Source: a virus. From it: a stretch of DNA of 27,831 nucleotides. Where the stretch lies: positions 1 to 27,831 of IMG/VR virus record IMGVR_UViG_3300030060_004998; one strand, given 5' to 3'. Made by a program: the position numbers and the translations under genes. The notes beneath the pieces are model-generated. The model searched no databases. It saw only the letters and a program-made list of their open reading frames with translations, and had not been told where the DNA came from. Positions 1-18,107 of this stretch are shown here, in pieces (the first letter of the stretch is position 1; every line of letters starts with the position of its first letter).

Positions 1-671
1 TGCTCGTACATTATGCCAAAAAACACGATTTAGAGGGCGCTGAGACCCTAATTAAGTTCTTTCATGATGGAGAGGACTTCCACCAAGTAACAGCTAATAT
101 GGCTCAAATATCACGGAAAGAAGCTAAAACAATAGGATTAGGACTTATGTACGGAATGGGCATAGCTAAATTAGCTGATTCTCTAGATATTAGTCAGGAT
201 CAAGCTAAATCTTTGAAGAAGAAATACAACGATAACGTAAGTTTTTTAAATAATATTATTGTTCGTGCTACAAGATACACAGAACAAAACGGATATATAA
301 ATACTCTGCTCGGTCGTAAATGTAGATTTGATCTATGGGAGAACAAAGACTTCCACGACAAAAGAATGATGAATTATGAAAACGCCAAAAAGACATGGGC
401 GTGGAATGAAATGAAAAGAGCAGGAACCTATCGTGCATTGAATAGGTTGATACAAGGTTCAGCGGCAGATCAAACCAAGAAAGCCATGGTTGATTTGTGG
501 AATAATCACGGGATTGTCCCGATGATACAAATACATGACGAACTAAATATTTCTGTAGCCGATGAGACCCAGGTAAAAGAAATAAAAGATACGATGGAGT
601 CTGCCGTTGAACTTCACGTGCCCGTGAAATGCGAGGCAAAAATAGGAACAAACTGGGGAGAAATAAAATGA
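1..671 (+). CDS. polA: DNA polymerase I, family A (C-terminal part, cut by window edge)
   Basis: This is the replicative DNA polymerase of the phage. The reading frame is open from base 3, so about 222 C-terminal residues are present; exonuclease, thumb and motif A lie outside the window. Visible polymerase signatures in order are motif B / O-helix (SRKEAKTIGLGLMYGMG, bases 111-161) with the invariant Arg, Lys and Tyr, the GYINTLLGRKCRF block, the RALNRLIQGSAADQTKKAM helix, and catalytic motif C QIHDEL (about 531-548) with the metal-binding Asp. The residue matching E. coli Phe762 is Leu (codon 138-140), as in many marine phage enzymes. The stop TGA overlaps the next start as ATGA, so the two genes are probably translationally coupled. 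Recognition comes from motifs, and family A is secure. Confidence 0.96.
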   Translation, partial: LVHYAKKHDLEGAETLIKFFHDGEDFHQVTANMAQISRKEAKTIGLGLMYGMGIAKLADSLDISQDQAKSLKKKYNDNVSFLNNIIVRATRYTEQNGYINTLLGRKCRFDLWENKDFHDKRMMNYENAKKTWAWNEMKRAGTYRALNRLIQGSAADQTKKAMVDLWNNHGIVPMIQIHDELNISVADETQVKEIKDTMESAVELHVPVKCEAKIGTNWGEIK

Positions 672-10444: not shown

Positions 10445-11032
10445 TTATTGAAATCCCACGTTACCAGATATTGATATTCTATATTCATCTGATGTATAAA
10501 AAGGATAAACTAAGTGATTTAGATTAGCGGGAAACAAAGCCATCTTACCCTCCCAAGTTTTGTCGGCTGGTATCTCTATACTCACTATTTGACCTAATTC
10601 GTTTGTCGTTAAAAAAGCAAAATGTCCTGCCCTTATTTCATCTTGTTTCATGTGTGGGAATCTTGCTCTTTCGTCTTCAATTTTATACGGAACTTTATGC
10701 CATATAACAAAGCTAAATAAACCATCATGAATATGCATTGGATTAAATTCATATTTTTTTTGATAATTAACCCATAAATGATGAAGTTGTAAGTTGAATT
10801 TTTTTGTAGTGTGCATACCACTAATTCTTCCATAATAGTTTGGAAACTTTTTAAAATGCTCTTGTATACAAGTGCTTATTAGAGGCCATACTATAGGCTT
10901 ACCCTCTGGTAACATAAACTCGTTTTGAATATTACCTGCAAGATCTTGATTTGCTCTTTCTGTATGTTTTTTGTTTATAACTTCGTCTAATTTTTTATTA
11001 ACATCCTCAGGAAGATTCGCTATTAAATACAT
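10445..11032 (-). CDS. 2OG-Fe(II) oxygenase-like protein, 195 aa
   Basis: This is a probable 2-oxoglutarate/iron dioxygenase of the short phage type (resembling the Pfam 2OG-FeII_Oxy_5 group). The double-stranded beta-helix signatures are EFNPMHIHDGLFSFVIW, with metal ligands around His100/His102/Asp103, and ALFPANLNHLVYPFYTSDEY followed by RISISGN, with distal His173 and 2OG-binding Arg185. The substrate is unknown. It is clearly paralogous to the protein at 14748-15359: both share the N-terminal block (N/D)xDLAGNI(Q/E)xE and the whole C-terminal pattern. It overlaps the 118-aa gene by one base (TAATG), and no ribosome site is seen. Confidence 0.85.
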   Translation of the reverse strand: MYLIANLPEDVNKKLDEVINKKHTERANQDLAGNIQNEFMLPEGKPIVWPLISTCIQEHFKKFPNYYGRISGMHTTKKFNLQLHHLWVNYQKKYEFNPMHIHDGLFSFVIWHKVPYKIEDERARFPHMKQDEIRAGHFAFLTTNELGQIVSIEIPADKTWEGKMALFPANLNHLVYPFYTSDEYRISISGNVGFQ

Positions 11033-11388: not shown

Positions 11389-11554
11389 TTGAAAAAAACC
11401 AACTTCGGCGAGTTGACTCCTCTTGAGTATCTTGTGTGTATTGCGTATTTAATTGTTGAACCAATTCTTCAAGTTGTCTAATTAGTTCAGCCTGTTGTTC
11501 TCTTTGATAGTCTTCTCTTGGATCTGGAAATCTTGTTAAACTTAGTTTAGCCAT
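11381..11554 (-). CDS. Small coiled-coil protein, 57 aa
   Basis: A compact gene fills the gap between the nozzle protein and the 118-aa protein. ATG 11554 overlaps the nozzle stop as TAATG, and TGA lies at 11381-11383. The product starts MAKLSLTRFPDPREDYQREQ and continues with a Gln/Glu/Leu heptad-like helix (AELIRQLEELVQQLNTQY), ending in TRRSWFFSNG. The tight junctions on both sides and the coiled-coil pattern support a real gene. A small tail-associated or chaperone-like function is conceivable but not shown. Confidence 0.72.
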   Translation of the reverse strand: MAKLSLTRFPDPREDYQREQQAELIRQLEELVQQLNTQYTQDTQEESTRRSWFFSNG

Positions 11555-13377
11555 TATCTTCTACCGTCGGGTTGTATGTCAAATCTTTGCGTTCCTAGTC
11601 TCCATGCTGTTCCTGTTGTGTTAGAAACCACGTTGACTGTAAACTCTCTGCCTCTACCACGAAGACTAACAAAATCTGTATTATCTTGAAACGTTACTGT
11701 TTTAGTTACACTCGTGCTATTATTTGGATAATTTTTAAACTCTAACTTAGCATTCAATGTGCCTTCTTGATCTTCAATATCTGGAATTAATTTGGAAACA
11801 AAAGAAAACTCATTACCCTCTCCTATCTGCACTACACCAGATTTAACAAAGGCAGTAATAGCCTGACCGTCACCATTGTTTCCTTGTTCATGTAAAAACA
11901 CTGAAGATGCTCCTGCAGTCAGTCCAACAATTACCTCATTATTAGCGGTTGCCGTTGGATCAAACTCAGTTGCTATTGGGTTGTCATAAACTTCTCTGTC
12001 TATCCATGTTGTTCTAGATAAAGTGCCAGTCCACCAAGTGCCCTCTAAATAATTGTAAGCCACTATTGCGTTAATTTGATCGGAGCCTGTTCTTGGATAA
12101 AACCACATGATCTCGTTGAACTCACCATTGTGACCAGCAAAAGCATTCTCTGATCCTGTTATGTTAATATTATTAAATATAAATTGTTCCACAGTGCAAG
12201 GTAGTTTTTTTACGGTACCATCGAATAAGAAAAAAGAATCTTGTGACATCCAATAAGACACACCATTTATATCCACACCCGCATGACTTCCTATAATTCC
12301 ACAGTTTTGACCTAACTGTCTTAAACCAAAAGTAAATGGTGGACCTATGAATTGTAAACTATGTAAAGATGTATCTGTCCAAACAAGTATTTGTCCTCTT
12401 GATCGCTCTGCTGCCACGATCCGTGATCCGTCGGCAATACGCAGTGAGCCCGCAGTGTTCTCTGCAGTTGGTTGATACGTATTAATGTCCTCTTGATTTG
12501 AAAATCTTAATAACAAATCATCTTGGGGATCAGATCCAATGGTTGTTTGTGTGCCAAAAAAAATCAAGTGTCTATCTGGGGTGGAAACTAAACCTAATCT
12601 AGATTTAGTAGGTGCGTTTGTAATAGCAGTCGCTCTTGTCGATACACCTGAATCAGGACTCCATTCAAATGCTCCACCATTTAAAACCACTGCAATAAGT
12701 TTTTGTCCAAAATTATCTAGTGACCATTGTCTAGCCTCTAGAGTTACATTTGAAGTGCTTGATGGTGTGCCCCATGTGCCTGAACCCCACGTATCTGTGC
12801 CCCAACCAAAAGCTGAAGTAGATAGAGATGGCCCAACATTTATTTGATATTTTGCGTTACCTGTCCCTCCTCCTCCAGATGTTGATCCTGATGCGGCAGC
12901 CGTGGTTGTAACAACATATGCATCACTATTAGCAATAGAAGTTATCTCAAACTCTTTATTCATATCAAGCCCGTCTATGGCAGAGAAAGAATCAAAAGTA
13001 ACAAAGTCTCCTTTTGCAGCGCCATGTGAGGTATCTGTAACCACAACTGATGTGGTGGCGTTTGTTGTAAAGGGATTGGTAAGTGCCTGAGTTTCTCTTA
13101 TAGGGGTAATATCATAAACTCTACCTTCCTCATGAACGTAAAGTTTTCTATCTGTGCCAAAAGCATCATACCTTGTTCCATCAAGTGCCACCCATGCATG
13201 TTGATCTCTTGCAACTCCAACTAAAGTTGTTGAAACAAACCTCTCCCAACCTTTAATTTTTTGAGCAGACCCTTGAAAAAAACGAACCATATCTCCATCA
13301 GTCCATTTACCTTGACCTGTATAGTCAGTAACTTCCTTATTTATACCGGGAGCTGGTCTAAAATTTATTAGGGGCAT
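11554..13377 (-). CDS. Tail nozzle / packaged-DNA stabilisation protein, 607 aa
   Basis: This is the likely short-tail tube or nozzle component (functionally like P22 gp10 or T7 gp12). The N-terminus PLINFRPAPGINKEVTDYTG, followed by KWTDGDMVRFFQGSAQKIKG and later RDQHAWVALDGTRY, is a hallmark of marine podovirus tail-stabilisation proteins as I remember them. The rest is beta-rich with propeller-like blocks (RSRGQILVWTDTSLHSLQFI, WMSQDSFFLFDG, AYNYLEGTWWTGTLSRTTWI) and a Gly/Ser/Thr linker near residue 165. It supports the short-tailed assignment together with the adaptors at 19.6-21.3 kb. No Shine-Dalgarno sequence is visible at ATG 13377, but a promoter-like pair lies just upstream. Confidence 0.85.
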   Translation of the reverse strand: MPLINFRPAPGINKEVTDYTGQGKWTDGDMVRFFQGSAQKIKGWERFVSTTLVGVARDQHAWVALDGTRYDAFGTDRKLYVHEEGRVYDITPIRETQALTNPFTTNATTSVVVTDTSHGAAKGDFVTFDSFSAIDGLDMNKEFEITSIANSDAYVVTTTAAASGSTSGGGGTGNAKYQINVGPSLSTSAFGWGTDTWGSGTWGTPSSTSNVTLEARQWSLDNFGQKLIAVVLNGGAFEWSPDSGVSTRATAITNAPTKSRLGLVSTPDRHLIFFGTQTTIGSDPQDDLLLRFSNQEDINTYQPTAENTAGSLRIADGSRIVAAERSRGQILVWTDTSLHSLQFIGPPFTFGLRQLGQNCGIIGSHAGVDINGVSYWMSQDSFFLFDGTVKKLPCTVEQFIFNNINITGSENAFAGHNGEFNEIMWFYPRTGSDQINAIVAYNYLEGTWWTGTLSRTTWIDREVYDNPIATEFDPTATANNEVIVGLTAGASSVFLHEQGNNGDGQAITAFVKSGVVQIGEGNEFSFVSKLIPDIEDQEGTLNAKLEFKNYPNNSTSVTKTVTFQDNTDFVSLRGRGREFTVNVVSNTTGTAWRLGTQRFDIQPDGRR

Positions 13378-13383
13378 GATGTG

Positions 13384-13412
13384 AATATATATAAATTAGT
13401 CTTTTTTAGCAA
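13384..13412 (-). promoter_or_regulatory. Candidate promoter before tail-nozzle gene
   Basis: Reading the - strand, TTGCTA (13407-13412) is followed after 17 bases by TATATT (13384-13389), just upstream of ATG 13377. The hexamers are identical to those before the Gly-rich fibre gene. In AT-rich DNA such matches also occur by chance. Confidence 0.35.
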
Positions 13413-14196
13413 CCAAAGACCCTACATGTCCTCTATACGCTCTATTGCCAAAATGCGTTAATGGACTAGCTAAATCTGCCCAAATCTCTCCACCACATTC
13501 TTGCCATAATCTAGAGAAATAATAGTCTTCAGATAAATATCTTTTTTGCCCTGCGGTCATATAAGGGCCAACAGCGAATAAATCATAACAATTGTCTGAT
13601 CTGTAATGTAAACCATTTACTATCTGATCTGTTTCATATTTTCTTTCGGGAAACTTTTTCATCATAGTTGTAAATACCTCTCTCTTAACTAACATCATCC
13701 CGGTAGCTGCTTCATTAACTCTAAAATATCCATGCTCTCCCGAAACATTTTTAGGATCATCAAAGTTTACATTGTACCCTAAAGATTTAGCTTCCATATC
13801 CTCCAAACTAATTTCTGGATCCTCTTCTAAAATACCTTTTATCTTTTCAAGATGTATGTGTTTTCTAGGATAAACTCCACACACAACATCTTTGTCCGCA
13901 CAAATTAGTCTTTGAACATTTTGCCAGTGAAACCCTATGTCTGCATCAATAAATAAAAGATGACTAGCTGCAAAATCTGTTTGATCCAACATCATAGATA
14001 CAAGAGTATTCCTAGCTCTAGTTATTAAACTTTCATTTCCCATAGTTTGTATTCTCATGTTAACACCAGATTGTGCAGTCCAACTTTGAAGTTCTAACAA
14101 TCCATGTAAGGTGGGTTCTGTTAATAAACCCCCATACATAGGCATTCCTAAAAATATTTTAAAATTTTTATTTCTTATTTCTTCTGGATTAATCAT
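13396..14196 (-). CDS. Glycosyltransferase, GT-A fold (family 2-like), 266 aa
   Basis: This enzyme probably moves a sugar from a nucleotide donor to an acceptor in the cytoplasm. The start KIFLGMPMYGG is a typical first beta-strand. RARNTLVSMML (60-70) is followed by LLFIDADIGFHW with the DxD-type metal/nucleotide site Asp84-Ala-Asp86, then VVCGVYPRK. The C-terminal half has the acceptor-site style (GMMLVKREVF, SEDYYFSRLWQECGGEIWAD, then HFGNRAYRGHV). There is no membrane helix. It overlaps the cupin-like gene by 8 bases and belongs to the oxygenase cassette. Whether the acceptor is a virion protein, DNA or host polysaccharide cannot be read from the sequence. Confidence 0.88.
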   Translation of the reverse strand: MINPEEIRNKNFKIFLGMPMYGGLLTEPTLHGLLELQSWTAQSGVNMRIQTMGNESLITRARNTLVSMMLDQTDFAASHLLFIDADIGFHWQNVQRLICADKDVVCGVYPRKHIHLEKIKGILEEDPEISLEDMEAKSLGYNVNFDDPKNVSGEHGYFRVNEAATGMMLVKREVFTTMMKKFPERKYETDQIVNGLHYRSDNCYDLFAVGPYMTAGQKRYLSEDYYFSRLWQECGGEIWADLASPLTHFGNRAYRGHVGSLVAKKD

Positions 14197-14746
14197 CTTT
14201 TTGTAAGTCTATATTACAAGTAAGAGATAATTTTGGGCTTTGTATTTCTAATACTTGATGGTTAATATTTTTGTCAAACCAGATTACGTCCTGATCTTTT
14301 AATTTTTGTTCCGCATTATCAATCATCCACGTAGACTCTCCATAAATATTCTTAACGATTACAGCGTAATCATGTTGATGTTTACCAAAAGAAATAGATT
14401 TTTTACCATTACCCATGTAAATGTTGATATTTATATCTGTTTGAAATTGTGTATTAAGTAATTGTTGTATTATCCAAACATCTTTTGATATGCCACCAAC
14501 GGCAGAGAGAATTAAAGTATGCCCTTCCTCATAACACTCGATACACTTTTCTGAAAGCAAATATCCATCATCTCCGAAAAATTCTTGATGTTTTGTGCCG
14601 TCTTCTAAAATAGCTTCTACACTAGGTTGCCCAGATAAATATTGTTTTGGCCAACGTTTGCTGTCTAACAATCTTTCTAACATATTATCTTCTGTAAGAT
14701 TAACAGCTAAATTTTGTAATTTATCAATTAATTGTTTTTCTATCAT
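14189..14746 (-). CDS. Cupin/JmjC-like oxygenase, 185 aa
   Basis: The C-terminal half shows a cupin metal-site pattern resembling Cupin_4/JmjC hydroxylases: FGKHQHDYAVIVKNIYGEST with candidate ligands His123 and His125/Asp126, an aromatic at the end of the strand (W140), then DVIWFDKNINHQVLEI with His163. The N-terminal 80 residues are helical with a Cys pair (CIECYEEGH, 68-76) of unknown use. It is shorter than cellular JmjC enzymes. It lies between a glycosyltransferase and two 2OG oxygenases, so a protein-hydroxylase-like role in the same pathway is likely but unproven. A GAGG site precedes ATG 14746, the only decent ribosome site in the cassette. Confidence 0.7.
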   Translation of the reverse strand: MIEKQLIDKLQNLAVNLTEDNMLERLLDSKRWPKQYLSGQPSVEAILEDGTKHQEFFGDDGYLLSEKCIECYEEGHTLILSAVGGISKDVWIIQQLLNTQFQTDININIYMGNGKKSISFGKHQHDYAVIVKNIYGESTWMIDNAEQKLKDQDVIWFDKNINHQVLEIQSPKLSLTCNIDLQKDD

Positions 14747-14747
14747 T

Positions 14748-15359
14748 CTATACCTCTATCATTATATTTCCTGAAACACTAATACGATAATCATCTGAGC
14801 TAAAAAAGGGACTAACCGAATGACGAAGTTTAGACGGAAATAGACATATTTTACCCTCATATGATTTATCAGCATGAATTATTTCATTATTTATTTCTCC
14901 AAGAGCATTAGTGTAATGAAATGAGAAACACCCAGGCACATTTGTGTTACCGTGTTTTCCAGGTGAATTTTCTTGCTCTTGTTCTTTTGTATAAGGCACC
15001 TGAAGCCATATGACAAAAGAAAAAACTCCTGTGTGTGTATGTATGGGATTAAACTCATGTTTTTTTTGAAAGTTAACCCACATTTGGTCAAGAAAAAAAG
15101 GATGTCTATTTTTATTTACATCTATTGAATTTATGTAATTAAATTCTTCGTCATATGCTTTACATAAACTCATTATGTACTGTTCAAAATATCCTAATGC
15201 TTTTGGTATTAAATATTCTTTTTCTATGTTACCCGCTAAGTCTTTATTATGTTTATCAAGATTTTTTTCATTTACTATTTTTTTTAGTTTAATTAACAAT
15301 TCTTCAGGCACATCATCCATTACGTACCCTAAATTTTTGAAATAATATCTCTCTCCCAT
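14748..15359 (-). CDS. 2OG-Fe(II) oxygenase-like protein, 203 aa
   Basis: This probable 2-oxoglutarate/iron dioxygenase is paralogous to 10445-11032. Key parts are EFNPIHTHTGVFSFVIWLQ (His107, His109), ICLFPSKLRHSVSPFFSSDD (His180) and YRISVSGN (Arg192). The first ligand pair reads His-x-His rather than His-x-Asp, as in other short phage members. The start at 15359 is chosen because it forms a TAATG junction with the preceding oxygenase; an in-frame GTG at 15386 would add nine residues. No clear ribosome site exists, so coupled translation is expected. The substrate is unknown. Confidence 0.85.
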   Translation of the reverse strand: MGERYYFKNLGYVMDDVPEELLIKLKKIVNEKNLDKHNKDLAGNIEKEYLIPKALGYFEQYIMSLCKAYDEEFNYINSIDVNKNRHPFFLDQMWVNFQKKHEFNPIHTHTGVFSFVIWLQVPYTKEQEQENSPGKHGNTNVPGCFSFHYTNALGEINNEIIHADKSYEGKICLFPSKLRHSVSPFFSSDDYRISVSGNIMIEV

Positions 15360-16483
15360 TATTTGAAACTTGGCCCCCTTAACCACGATACTATTGTTCT
15401 TCTTGTTCCTGATATAACAGGCTCAACACAATGTAATAAAAAAGAAGGAAAAACTAAAACATCACCAAGTTCTTGTGGAGGATAAATTTTATCTTTACCA
15501 GCTTTGATATATAAACGACCACCCTCATAATCATCATTTAAGAAAAGAATGATAGTTAACTTTCTTTCTGCTTCTGTGTTAAAAATAGTGTCAATGTGCT
15601 CTGAAAAATGTCCAGCAGGGCCATACTGTAAATATTCAGATTGATCGCTGTGATTTATATTGTATTTCCAAACTTTATAGTTTGCCGCTAAACCTATTCC
15701 TGCTAATGTGGCACCTATCCCTTGATCTGGTGGTAATAGTATTTTTTTACTGTCTCTTATTTCTTTATCTAAAACCATGCCAACTAACAAAGCATCTTGT
15801 AAGTGTTCTTTGTTATCATTTAAAGAATTAATTATAGCCTCACAACTTTTTTTTGATAATGCATTTTTTTTAGTTTGCGAAATATAATTAAATCTGTAAT
15901 TCTCTGGATCATCATGATGAGCTAATTTTTCTCTTTTATCATACTTCCATTCAGCATTAGGCCCCTCAGCATCAACATAATGAATAAAAACTTGTGCTTG
16001 CCACTTACCTTCAACATATTTTTCTCGCCAATGATATATTTCACATCCTTTGTAAACAACTGCATCTCCAACATTCATGTTAATTTGTTTTGCATCTTCT
16101 TTGTTTTTTTGATGTCCTACATAAATAGGCCATTGATCTCCTTCAAAACCTAAATTTATTGTGGCACTTATTTCACAAGCAGGTCTATCTTTATGAATTT
16201 TTAACTCATCTCCTGGTGCGTACCACCTTGCATAGGCATATGTAGGGTGTAATTTTTTGCCTGTTACTTTCTCTATACTAGGTGTGAGTTGTTCTAAGAG
16301 ACTGTCAAATAAGACACAATGACCGATAGAATGAGATAGGGGGCATTGAGTATCTTTTGTAGTTAGACCTTGATCGACTAATTTTTTAAATTCAGTAACA
16401 AAATCTCCGCAATTTTCTTTGTCTATAAAATTACTTAAATAAACATATTTATTCTCTTCAAAAAAAGATTGTTTCTCTTTCAT
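15359..16483 (-). CDS. Two-domain 2OG-Fe(II) oxygenase, 374 aa
   Basis: Two different dioxygenase domains are fused. Domain 1 (about 1-175) has YAPGDELKIHKDRPACEIS with His97/Asp99 and GDAVVYKGCEIYHWRE with His151; the usual Arg/Lys ten residues after the distal His is not there. Domain 2 (about 195-374) resembles prolyl 4-hydroxylases: YGPAGHFSEHIDTIF with His296/Asp298, FLNDDYEGGRLYI, LGDVLVFPSFLLHCVEPV with His351, and GTRRTIVSWLRGP with Arg361 at the classic +10 position. It is the first gene of the modification cassette. ATG 16483 has no Shine-Dalgarno sequence. Domain 2 is the best candidate for a protein hydroxylase; the target is unknown. Confidence 0.9.
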   Translation of the reverse strand: MKEKQSFFEENKYVYLSNFIDKENCGDFVTEFKKLVDQGLTTKDTQCPLSHSIGHCVLFDSLLEQLTPSIEKVTGKKLHPTYAYARWYAPGDELKIHKDRPACEISATINLGFEGDQWPIYVGHQKNKEDAKQINMNVGDAVVYKGCEIYHWREKYVEGKWQAQVFIHYVDAEGPNAEWKYDKREKLAHHDDPENYRFNYISQTKKNALSKKSCEAIINSLNDNKEHLQDALLVGMVLDKEIRDSKKILLPPDQGIGATLAGIGLAANYKVWKYNINHSDQSEYLQYGPAGHFSEHIDTIFNTEAERKLTIILFLNDDYEGGRLYIKAGKDKIYPPQELGDVLVFPSFLLHCVEPVISGTRRTIVSWLRGPSFK

Positions 16484-16530: not shown

Positions 16531-16776
16531 CTATGACTCGTCTTTTGTAACGTTGACTATTTCTTTAAAAGTTTTGTCTACGGTGTCATAATAATGACCA
16601 CCTGTGGTGATTGTGTTGTCACAATCTACCCAAAATAGAGGAGGTGCAACATCAAACTCATTCTCTTCTATTTGAGCCACCCTAGCAGAATTAGGAATGG
16701 TTTCCATTATTGATTCATCACCGTCAAAACCAGTTCGTCTTCTTATTGTTGTTGCTGTTTCTATTAATGCTTTCAT
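16531..16776 (-). CDS. Hypothetical protein after fibre gene, 81 aa
   Basis: This small protein carries the block EFDVAPPLFWVDCDNT, followed by GGHYYDTVDKTFKEIV. I remember the VAPPLFWVDC pattern from many marine phage proteins encoded directly after tail-fibre genes; the function is unknown (chaperone or fibre-tip partner are guesses). It overlaps the fibre gene as TAATG at 16776 and is separated by 47 bases from the oxygenase cassette. There is no signal or membrane segment. Confidence 0.78.
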   Translation of the reverse strand: MKALIETATTIRRRTGFDGDESIMETIPNSARVAQIEENEFDVAPPLFWVDCDNTITTGGHYYDTVDKTFKEIVNVTKDES

Positions 16777-18107
16777 TATCCTAAATACTCCTCAACTATA
16801 ACTATTCCAGCCGCTCCAGAGTTACCATTAAACATTCCGCCACCACCAAAGGCTTGACCATCGTTAGGTTGATTATCTGCTCCTCTTTTTCCACCAGCGC
16901 CAAAACCAAAAGCTGCATCTCCGCCACTTCCTAAAATACCACTTGGTCCTCCGTCTAGGCCTGTGTTTCCTCTGACATTTACGTTTCCGCCAGATCCAAT
17001 GCCGCCGTTTCCACCTTGCCCGGCAGTTCCTCCACCGCCTCTTGTGGCTCCACTTCCACCTGAAGCAGAACAGAAAGTTCCAAAGCTAGATGTTCCACCG
17101 GCTGCGCCTGTGCCACCAGGTGCAGTGCCACCTGTGCCTACAGTCACTGAAACAGGATTACTTACATCTGATGAAGTGAGACGTTCAATAACTCCTCCGC
17201 CGCCGCCGCCGCCTGCGCCTTGTTCGGGAGCTGGAGTTGATCCCCCTCCACCGCCGCCTATTGCAGTAACTTTAAGAGAACTCATGTCTGAGTCTTTAGT
17301 AAAAGTACCAGGATTTGTAAAAACTGTAAGTTTGTATCCACCGCCACCTGCTGCTGCCGCAAATTCTAATCCGCTTGCACCAGAGTTGACTGTTAAAACT
17401 TGTCCTGCAGTTCCAATAGATGTAAGTCCTGTTCCACCTTTTGAAGTTGGAACTGTTGGTAATCTTGCATCACCTATTGTGCCTGAGGCTATGTTACTTG
17501 CATTTAAAGCTGTTAGAGCAGATCCATCTGCTGCGGGAAGTGTTGCAGGAAATCTTGCATCTGGAACTGTGCCTGATCCAAGATTAGAAGCATTTAATGA
17601 TGTTAAATTAGCACCAGAAGCTGCAGGTAAAGTTGCAGGAAATCTACCGTCAGGTAAAGTACCAGACCCTAAGGCTCCTGCATCTGTGGATGAAATTATT
17701 TCTACATTAAAGTTTGATGAACCATCACAAAATACTGTTGTCTTTGCACCTTGTGCAATAGCAATACCATTAGCTGTATGGCCTGTTGCTGCGATAGTTA
17801 AAGTTTGAGAACCAGAAGTATTATTAAAAAAGTTATATTCGCTTTCAACGGCAGGTATAAATACCACGATATCGCCTGTTAAAGCACCTGTTAATTCAAT
17901 TGTTTTGTTTGAAGACTCTGCAGTATCTGATGCATTAGCAGTAGTAAGTGTAATATTAGATGATCCCGCAACAGATTTTGATAAATATCCCGCTGCAAAA
18001 GCATCTAAAACCTCTAAGTTGTTATTTGTATTAGTACCCCATGTATTGGCGTTGGCGCCAGTAGCCATGAGTTCTAATTTGAGTCTATCTGAATATGTAC
18101 TGCTCAT
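16776..18107 (-). CDS. Tail fibre protein with 30-aa repeats and Gly-rich tip, 443 aa
   Basis: This is a probable receptor-binding fibre. The N-terminus (SSTYSDRLKLELMATGANAN, then TWGTNTNNNLEVLDAF) is a widespread phage fibre attachment motif. Residues 146-235 hold three repeats with exact 30-residue spacing (GSGTLPDGRFPATLPA / GSGTVPDARFPATLPA / ASGTIGDARLPTVP). From residue 284 to 435 the protein is extremely Gly-rich (GGGGGGSTPAPEQGAGGGGG and similar), ending GAAGIVIVEEYLG, resembling polyglycine-helix adhesin tips of T4-like phages. A strong GGAGG site precedes ATG 18107, and promoter-like hexamers lie upstream. It is directly upstream of the hydroxylase/glycosyltransferase cassette. Confidence 0.9.
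   Translation of the reverse strand: MSSTYSDRLKLELMATGANANTWGTNTNNNLEVLDAFAAGYLSKSVAGSSNITLTTANASDTAESSNKTIELTGALTGDIVVFIPAVESEYNFFNNTSGSQTLTIAATGHTANGIAIAQGAKTTVFCDGSSNFNVEIISSTDAGALGSGTLPDGRFPATLPAASGANLTSLNASNLGSGTVPDARFPATLPAADGSALTALNASNIASGTIGDARLPTVPTSKGGTGLTSIGTAGQVLTVNSGASGLEFAAAAGGGGYKLTVFTNPGTFTKDSDMSSLKVTAIGGGGGGSTPAPEQGAGGGGGGGVIERLTSSDVSNPVSVTVGTGGTAPGGTGAAGGTSSFGTFCSASGGSGATRGGGGTAGQGGNGGIGSGGNVNVRGNTGLDGGPSGILGSGGDAAFGFGAGGKRGADNQPNDGQAFGGGGMFNGNSGAAGIVIVEEYLG
17403..17672 (-). repeat. Three 90-base coding repeats in the fibre
   Basis: Three in-frame units of 90 bases encode the LGSGT...LNASN repeat; the first two are close to each other and the third diverges after PTVP. They are protein repeats, not a CRISPR array. 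Confidence 0.85.

Follow-up and report, generated by a model that had tools for sequence, protein, structure and literature searches.

A tail-fibre-linked island of 2-oxoglutarate oxygenases in a relative of SAR11 podoviruses and its possible role in prolyl hydroxylation of glycine-rich fibre tips

Introduction

The IMG/VR record fragment IMGVR_UViG_3300030060_004998, which comprises 27,831 bases and is referred to here as the window (the whole stretch of DNA that was analysed), carries an island of enzyme genes behind its tail-fibre gene. On the minus strand the order is the fibre, a gene for an 81-amino-acid (81-aa) protein, a tandem 2-oxoglutarate (2OG)-Fe(II) oxygenase that we call DUAL, a short 2OG oxygenase of family PF13759, a cupin-fold protein, a glycosyltransferase (GT), a stabilization protein, a small gene and a second PF13759 oxygenase (Table 1). 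Its stabilization protein shares 45% identity with that of phage DSL-LC04 and 40–41% with those of HTVC027P and HTVC023P, both of which infect SAR11; the window is therefore placed by sequence as a marine podovirus in the wider group of the SAR11 phages HTVC023P/HTVC027P.

An earlier note on this DNA proposed that four adjacent genes (13396–16483) form a cassette that hydroxylates and then glycosylates the fibre or another virion protein, by analogy with collagen-like viral proteins. All four open reading frames (ORFs) are present and tightly packed on the minus strand, as is a fibre with two to three PDGRFPATLPA repeats and a Gly-rich tip. Family and model matches bear out the two-domain dioxygenase with a prolyl-4-hydroxylase-like second domain, the short 2OG oxygenase and the DxD glycosyltransferase; for the protein described as cupin/JmjC-like, the cupin part holds and the JmjC match is weak. 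The cassette is linked to the fibre but does not follow it directly, as the 81-aa gene intervenes, and it extends further than described, with the second PF13759 oxygenase lying beyond the stabilization gene. The ORFs of DUAL and the short oxygenase overlap by 28 bp and those of the cupin and the GT by 8 bp; such overlapping or nearly touching ORFs suggest a single transcript. The 81-aa protein has no Pfam match itself; its longer relatives carry Phage_tail_APC (PF16778, E=6.6e-21), and a gene of this type typically sits between the Gly-rich tip and DUAL where DUAL is fused.

Table 1. Features of the island and its borders in the window
Feature	Position	Strand	Characteristics
Tail fibre	16776..18107	-	Conserved N-terminal shaft, 2-3 PDxRFPATLPA repeats, C-terminal Gly-rich tip; tail fibre PHROGs
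Gly-rich fibre tip (proposed substrate)	fibre residues about 259-443	-	7 Pro; PF21722 (Gly_rich_2), E=4.5e-6
81-aa protein, probable Tfa-like tail-fibre assembly chaperone	16531..16776	-	Adjoins fibre
DUAL, tandem 2OG-Fe(II) oxygenase, 374 aa	15359..16483	-	C-half PF13640, E=4.6e-17
DUAL N-domain	residues about 1-190		H97, D99, H151
DUAL C-domain	residues about 196-374		H296, D298, H351, R361; prolyl-4-hydroxylase-like
Short 2OG-Fe(II) oxygenase, 212 aa, accessory	14748..15386	-	PF13759, E=4.3e-13; HxH variant HTH...H...R
Cupin-fold protein, 185 aa, accessory, mobile	14189..14746	-	Cupin/AraC_binding, E=2e-5; JmjC_2 weak, 0.001
GT-A glycosyltransferase, 266 aa	13396..14196	-	PHROG 1574; DxD D84, D86; no confident Pfam match
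Podovirus stabilization/virion structural protein, island border	11554..13377	-	Stabilization-protein identities to related phages
Second PF13759-type oxygenase, paralogue of 14748-15386	10445..11032	-	E=1e-8; beyond stabilization gene

The tandem oxygenase

Both iron triads of DUAL, together with R361, are invariant among 27 aligned homologues. The C-domain has the features by which peptidyl-prolyl 4-hydroxylases (P4Hs) are recognized, namely an HxD...H iron triad, a 2OG-binding Arg and similarity in sequence and fold to solved P4Hs. A profile of the 27 proteins searched against the Protein Data Bank (PDB) matched the Bacillus anthracis P4H 3itq (E=2.6e-7), 5hv0 and PKHD hydroxylases. Furthermore, the top PDB folds found by Foldseek for the predicted structure of DUAL (predicted local distance difference test, pLDDT, 92.4) were the tandem Tpa1/OGFOD1 proteins, Pseudomonas putida P4H (template-modelling score, TMt, 0.72–0.75), PHD2, an algal P4H and PBCV-1 vCPH. 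The prediction from sequence and fold that DUAL is a peptidyl-prolyl-hydroxylase-type enzyme is supported. In Tpa1/OGFOD1 only the N-terminal domain is known to be catalytic. These proteins share with DUAL the presence of two double-stranded β-helix domains per chain; however, the Fe sites are complete in both domains of DUAL, and the domain placement differs (root-mean-square deviation above 20 over both).

The N-half of DUAL belongs to a family that is labelled ferrochelatase by PHROGs (PHROG 2954) and in phage annotation, for example in HTVC023P gp67 and P-RSM4_049. No ferrochelatase family match was obtained for DUAL in Pfam or NCBIfam or for 23 N-domain homologues in Pfam, and this identity was rejected, the domain having instead an HxD...H triad and an oxygenase fold. 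The annotation looks wrong across many phage records, the family being one of oxygenases with a 2OG-oxygenase triad. The 2OG oxygenase and 'ferrochelatase' of HTVC023P-type pelagiphages have been described as partner auxiliary metabolic genes (AMGs) tied to iron/heme (PMC9599517). These pairs and those of cyanomyoviruses come from the same or related groups of phages, belong to the same gene families as DUAL and are adjacent to each other; our description differs in that the 'ferrochelatase' is a 2OG-type domain, that it is fused to the P4H domain in the window and that the pair is tied to fibre tips.

Most close relatives encode the two domains in separate genes, with C preceding N, and the window has the fused N–C form. 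Stand-alone N-domain homologues were also found in Brasilonema sp. CT11 (L452:5971-6642), flanked by genes resembling those of nonribosomal peptide and polyketide synthases, and in a Nitrospirae metagenome-assembled genome (L451:3665-4276), near a PqqD-like gene; these bacterial contexts hint at peptide substrates. At two loci a gene read from its sequence as fatty-acid-desaturase-like follows shortly after DUAL (L046:10295-11053, L047:8477-9235).

Association with glycine-rich tips

Loci retrieved through DUAL alone include phages that have no other genes in common with the window, and in such phages the gene order is almost always a Gly-rich-tip protein, a small chaperone-like gene and DUAL. 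A Gly-rich ORF lies one to three genes upstream of DUAL in 15 of 20 usable nonredundant loci, compared with 5.1 expected for a random gene on the same contigs; in the other five it lies at four genes (L037, L045-L047) or the tip falls under the Gly cut-off (L044). In the reverse search, DUAL or the split pair was found just downstream in about 17 of 41 loci retrieved through the tip alone. The linkage persists in unrelated phages across DUAL pairs of 45–55% identity. In the isolate HTVC023P the adhesins gp59-62 are followed by a chaperone and then by the oxygenases, and the cultured phages P-RSM4, S-SSM5, S-SM1 and HTVC008M have the same module arrangement. The oxygenase pair is also retained in relatives of the window that have collar-type tips or S74-type tips, the latter with a separate Gly-rich adhesin. 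Collar tips could not be used as a second statistical test, the pair being present in every collar-tip locus found.

Proline enrichment

The composition of 37 nonredundant Gly-rich tips with an oxygenase nearby was compared with that of 22 tips without any, and all 20 residues were tested. The Pro content was 6.4% with an oxygenase and 2.1% without (Mann–Whitney U test, p=1.5e-8). Proline was the strongly enriched residue among the 20; Gly, Ala and Lys were unchanged, and Ser, Asp, His and Trp were somewhat lower in the oxygenase-linked tips. The relationship is reversed in the shafts of the same fibres (2.1% Pro with and 3.8% without), the ratio of Pro in the tip to that in the rest of the locus is 1.61 with and 0.53 without, and the enrichment runs against GC bias, the GC content being 0.38 with and 0.45 without. 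The effect remained after correction for the tree (phylogenetic generalized least squares, Brownian motion, p=1.7e-5), and in a matched comparison all 22 2OG-free tips lay below the Pro mean of their three nearest 2OG-linked tips. Removal of two doubtful 2OG-negative cases, L048 (a second adhesin) and L213 (at a contig end), left the result unchanged. In cultured HTVC023P, the four adhesins before the oxygenases contain 6–9% Pro and a separate Gly-rich gene 1.6%. Two loci found later in a different collection agree: L450 has a tip with 8.9% Pro, a small gene and DUAL, and L458 a Gly-rich product with 5.3% Pro, a chaperone and an oxygenase array. The tip Pro residues are mostly in nonconserved columns.

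Two other targets were rejected. Lysyl hydroxylation finds no counterpart in composition, as Lys makes up about 0.7% of the tip whether or not an oxygenase is nearby. The PDGRFPATLPA motif of the shaft occurs near DUAL in only three of 20 usable loci, and the shafts of 2OG-linked fibres are poorer in Pro. Fibre hydroxylation as put forward in the earlier note is well supported for the Gly-rich tip but not for the shaft, and the co-occurrence with Pro/Gly-rich fibres that it suggested checking was found, since DUAL adjoins Gly-rich tips that are enriched threefold in Pro. The collagen-like parallel was not upheld: the fibre has no Pfam Collagen match, and its tip is of the Gly_rich_2 type.

The linkage could also reflect a shared host-range recombination cassette, with the oxygenases acting on other virion or host proteins, such as a small structural neighbour or a host factor like EF-Tu. 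Fibre-adjacent genes do swap as a cassette (tip, small gene and DUAL in one form; collar tip, c3, c4 and the split pair in the other), and P. putida P4H, a structural neighbour of DUAL, modifies EF-Tu. However, hitch-hiking predicts neither a linkage maintained over such divergent DUAL pairs in unrelated phages nor an enrichment of Pro only that is specific to the tip and absent from the shaft and the rest of the locus, and we regard this explanation as unlikely.

Accessory enzymes and the glycosyltransferase

In 69 relatives with both the fibre and the stabilization gene on the contig, the interval between them is empty in some and contains up to about a dozen genes in others. Within the close clade the N/C pair of oxygenases and the GT are almost invariably present there, accompanied by a varying set, namely further PF13759/PF13640 oxygenases, a NodU-type carbamoyltransferase (PF16861) and GT9-like, sulfotransferase-like and methyltransferase-like genes, these last three labels being by-eye readings of sequences without Pfam matches. 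The short PF13759 oxygenase and the cupin of the window are members of this set: the presence of the former differs among relatives, and the latter lies after the stabilization gene in some and has homologues in HTVC008M and S-SSM7. In the PF13759-type oxygenases (both of those in the window and c1 of relatives), HxH (HTH, HIH or HHH) replaces HxD, a substitution that suggests a three-His iron site or a different chemistry.

Enzymes of this kind might instead alter a host surface glycan or make a small metabolite, serving superinfection exclusion or auxiliary metabolism. The GT9-like, carbamoyltransferase, sulfotransferase-like and methyltransferase-like genes of the relatives are consistent with this, as is the published treatment of the 2OG gene and its 'ferrochelatase' partner as AMGs (PMC9599517). 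The location directly after the fibre and chaperone in unrelated phages, the Pro enrichment and the protein-type hydroxylase fold argue against it, and it appears distinctly improbable.

Other modification genes were observed beside fibres and tips. The NodU-type carbamoyltransferase occurs in fibre-linked podovirus arrays (L128, L132, L149; c24) and adjoins the adhesin in cyanomyoviruses (L170:6228-7892, P-RSM4). Just after Gly-rich tips and a chaperone, a gene for a tryptophan halogenase occurs in L199 (L199:7922-9526; PF04820, E=1.8e-106) and in L203, and an annotated tryptophan halogenase adjoins the oxygenase-rich region of HTVC008M (L174:1-492); tips may thus be halogenated too. A sulfotransferase (L186:8117-8938; PF13469, E=2e-37) lies behind a Gly-rich tip and a chaperone-like gene, with a 398-aa protein intervening.

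The GT has an invariant DxD motif, matches a phage glycosyltransferase family and is modelled as GT-A (pLDDT 89.5). In the PDB its fold comes closest to those of human LH3 and COLGALT1 (6te3, 6fxm, 9evj; E about 1e-6), with mimivirus R699 further down; the match is modest (TMq 0.4–0.5) and denotes kinship at the level of the fold only. LH3 and COLGALT1 are collagen hydroxylysine glycosyltransferases, and the island resembles these enzymes and the mimivirus collagen system (L230, R699; PMC9546862) in combining a hydroxylase with a GT. It differs in that the window lacks collagen GXY repeats or a lysine-rich substrate, the genes are separate and the hydroxylase has a prolyl- rather than a lysyl-hydroxylase fold.

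The GT sits in the island throughout the lineage of the window, in practically every close relative, whereas most DUAL loci outside this lineage lack this GT; obligatory coupling of hydroxylase and GT was rejected there. Among 80 distant GT homologues none is beside a Gly-rich fibre, their neighbours being non-fibre genes, largely of DNA metabolism and including those of freshwater phages. In the T4-like phages phiM12, Cr30 and DLP6 the homologues lie between gp46 and gp45 or adjoin clamp genes. A general link of the GT family to fibres was rejected accordingly, the single exception being L213, an unrelated phage in which a GT homologue stands between a Pro-rich Gly tip and a chaperone, the usual position of DUAL. 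Because of these DNA-metabolism neighbourhoods and the scarcity of the GT beside DUAL elsewhere, the sugar step is a possibility only, and modification of the fibre by the GT seems rather doubtful.

Neighbours of this kind, which the earlier note had named as adverse to its proposal, raise the alternative that nucleic acid or nucleotides are the target of the island, through AlkB/TET-like oxidation followed by glycosylation. This draws on the GT homologues just described, a cupin homologue near gp46 in HTVC008M and AlkB matches of the DUAL N-domain, which are very weak (E=0.004–0.006). However, a family search of the cassette proteins gave no TET/JBP oxygenase match, the DUAL C-domain is P4H/PKHD-like, and in the lineage of the window the island always lies between the fibre and stabilization genes, a neighbourhood of structural genes. 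The prolyl-hydroxylase folds and the Pro statistic would also be left unexplained. Nucleic-acid modification, which the earlier note listed as an alternative, is not favoured and is very improbable.

Discussion

The explanation that we consider probable, if by no means secure, is that of a protein-modification island linked to the tail fibre, in which DUAL hydroxylates proline in the Gly-rich tip, the presumed site of host contact. The analysis shows the gene content, the intact catalytic residues, the prolyl-hydroxylase fold, the recurrence of DUAL near Gly-rich tips in otherwise unrelated phages and the tip-specific Pro enrichment; that the enzyme acts on the tip and on its proline residues, with an effect on adsorption, we infer. 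The island would be expressed late with the virion proteins, as its operon position suggests, and DUAL would hydroxylate Pro in a tip that is probably of the polyglycine-II type, at about the time when the tip folds with the aid of the chaperone-like protein encoded next to it, or afterwards. Hydroxyproline in the variable tip loops could stiffen the adhesin or alter receptor contacts and provide new points for O-linkage. In the lineage of the window, the accessory oxygenase, cupin and GT may extend the modification, for example by glycosylation of the hydroxylated residue.

In gp38-type polyglycine-II adhesins (S16, PP01), the receptor is contacted by variable loops (PMC12892980). These tips share with the window Gly-rich motifs, variable loops at the fibre tip and a coupled chaperone (here PF21722 and the small/APC genes). 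They differ in that the tip of the window is fused to the fibre and has modification enzymes nearby.

Several observations weigh against prolyl hydroxylation of the tip. The oxygenase state switches only four to five times on the tip tree, so that few independent events lie behind the Pro statistic, and a small number of 2OG-free tips, such as L198, are rich in Pro. The focus on proline itself arose from inspecting the tips first; the enlarged set, L450 and L458 were later checks. All 27 nonredundant collar-tip close relatives also have the oxygenase pair, with a Pro-rich loop and no oxygenase-free control, and the cyanophages S-T4 and ACG-2014f have no Gly-rich gene in the vicinity of their DUAL homologue. 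The AlkB match of the N-domain, although very weak, points in the same direction.

The gene families themselves are already known as AMGs in HTVC023P-type phages (PMC9599517); what appears to be new is their link to the fibre tip, the proline enrichment and the reassignment of the 'ferrochelatase'. A literature search of incomplete coverage found no papers on hydroxyproline or hydroxylation in phage virions. It is conceivable, and we put it forward tentatively, that Gly-rich receptor-binding tips of phages are commonly modified post-translationally by enzymes encoded next to them, by tandem prolyl hydroxylases that form hydroxyproline in the recognition loops, in some lineages with subsequent glycosylation, and elsewhere by sulfotransferases or tryptophan halogenases. 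In that case host range would be encoded by chemical modification in addition to sequence. If prolyl hydroxylation of the tip is correct, the widespread 'ferrochelatase' label would be corrected, and the many 2OG oxygenases of marine phages, usually filed under auxiliary metabolism, would in part be explained. Some of the most abundant phages in the ocean, those of SAR11 and cyanobacteria, would then modify the adhesin that recognizes the host.

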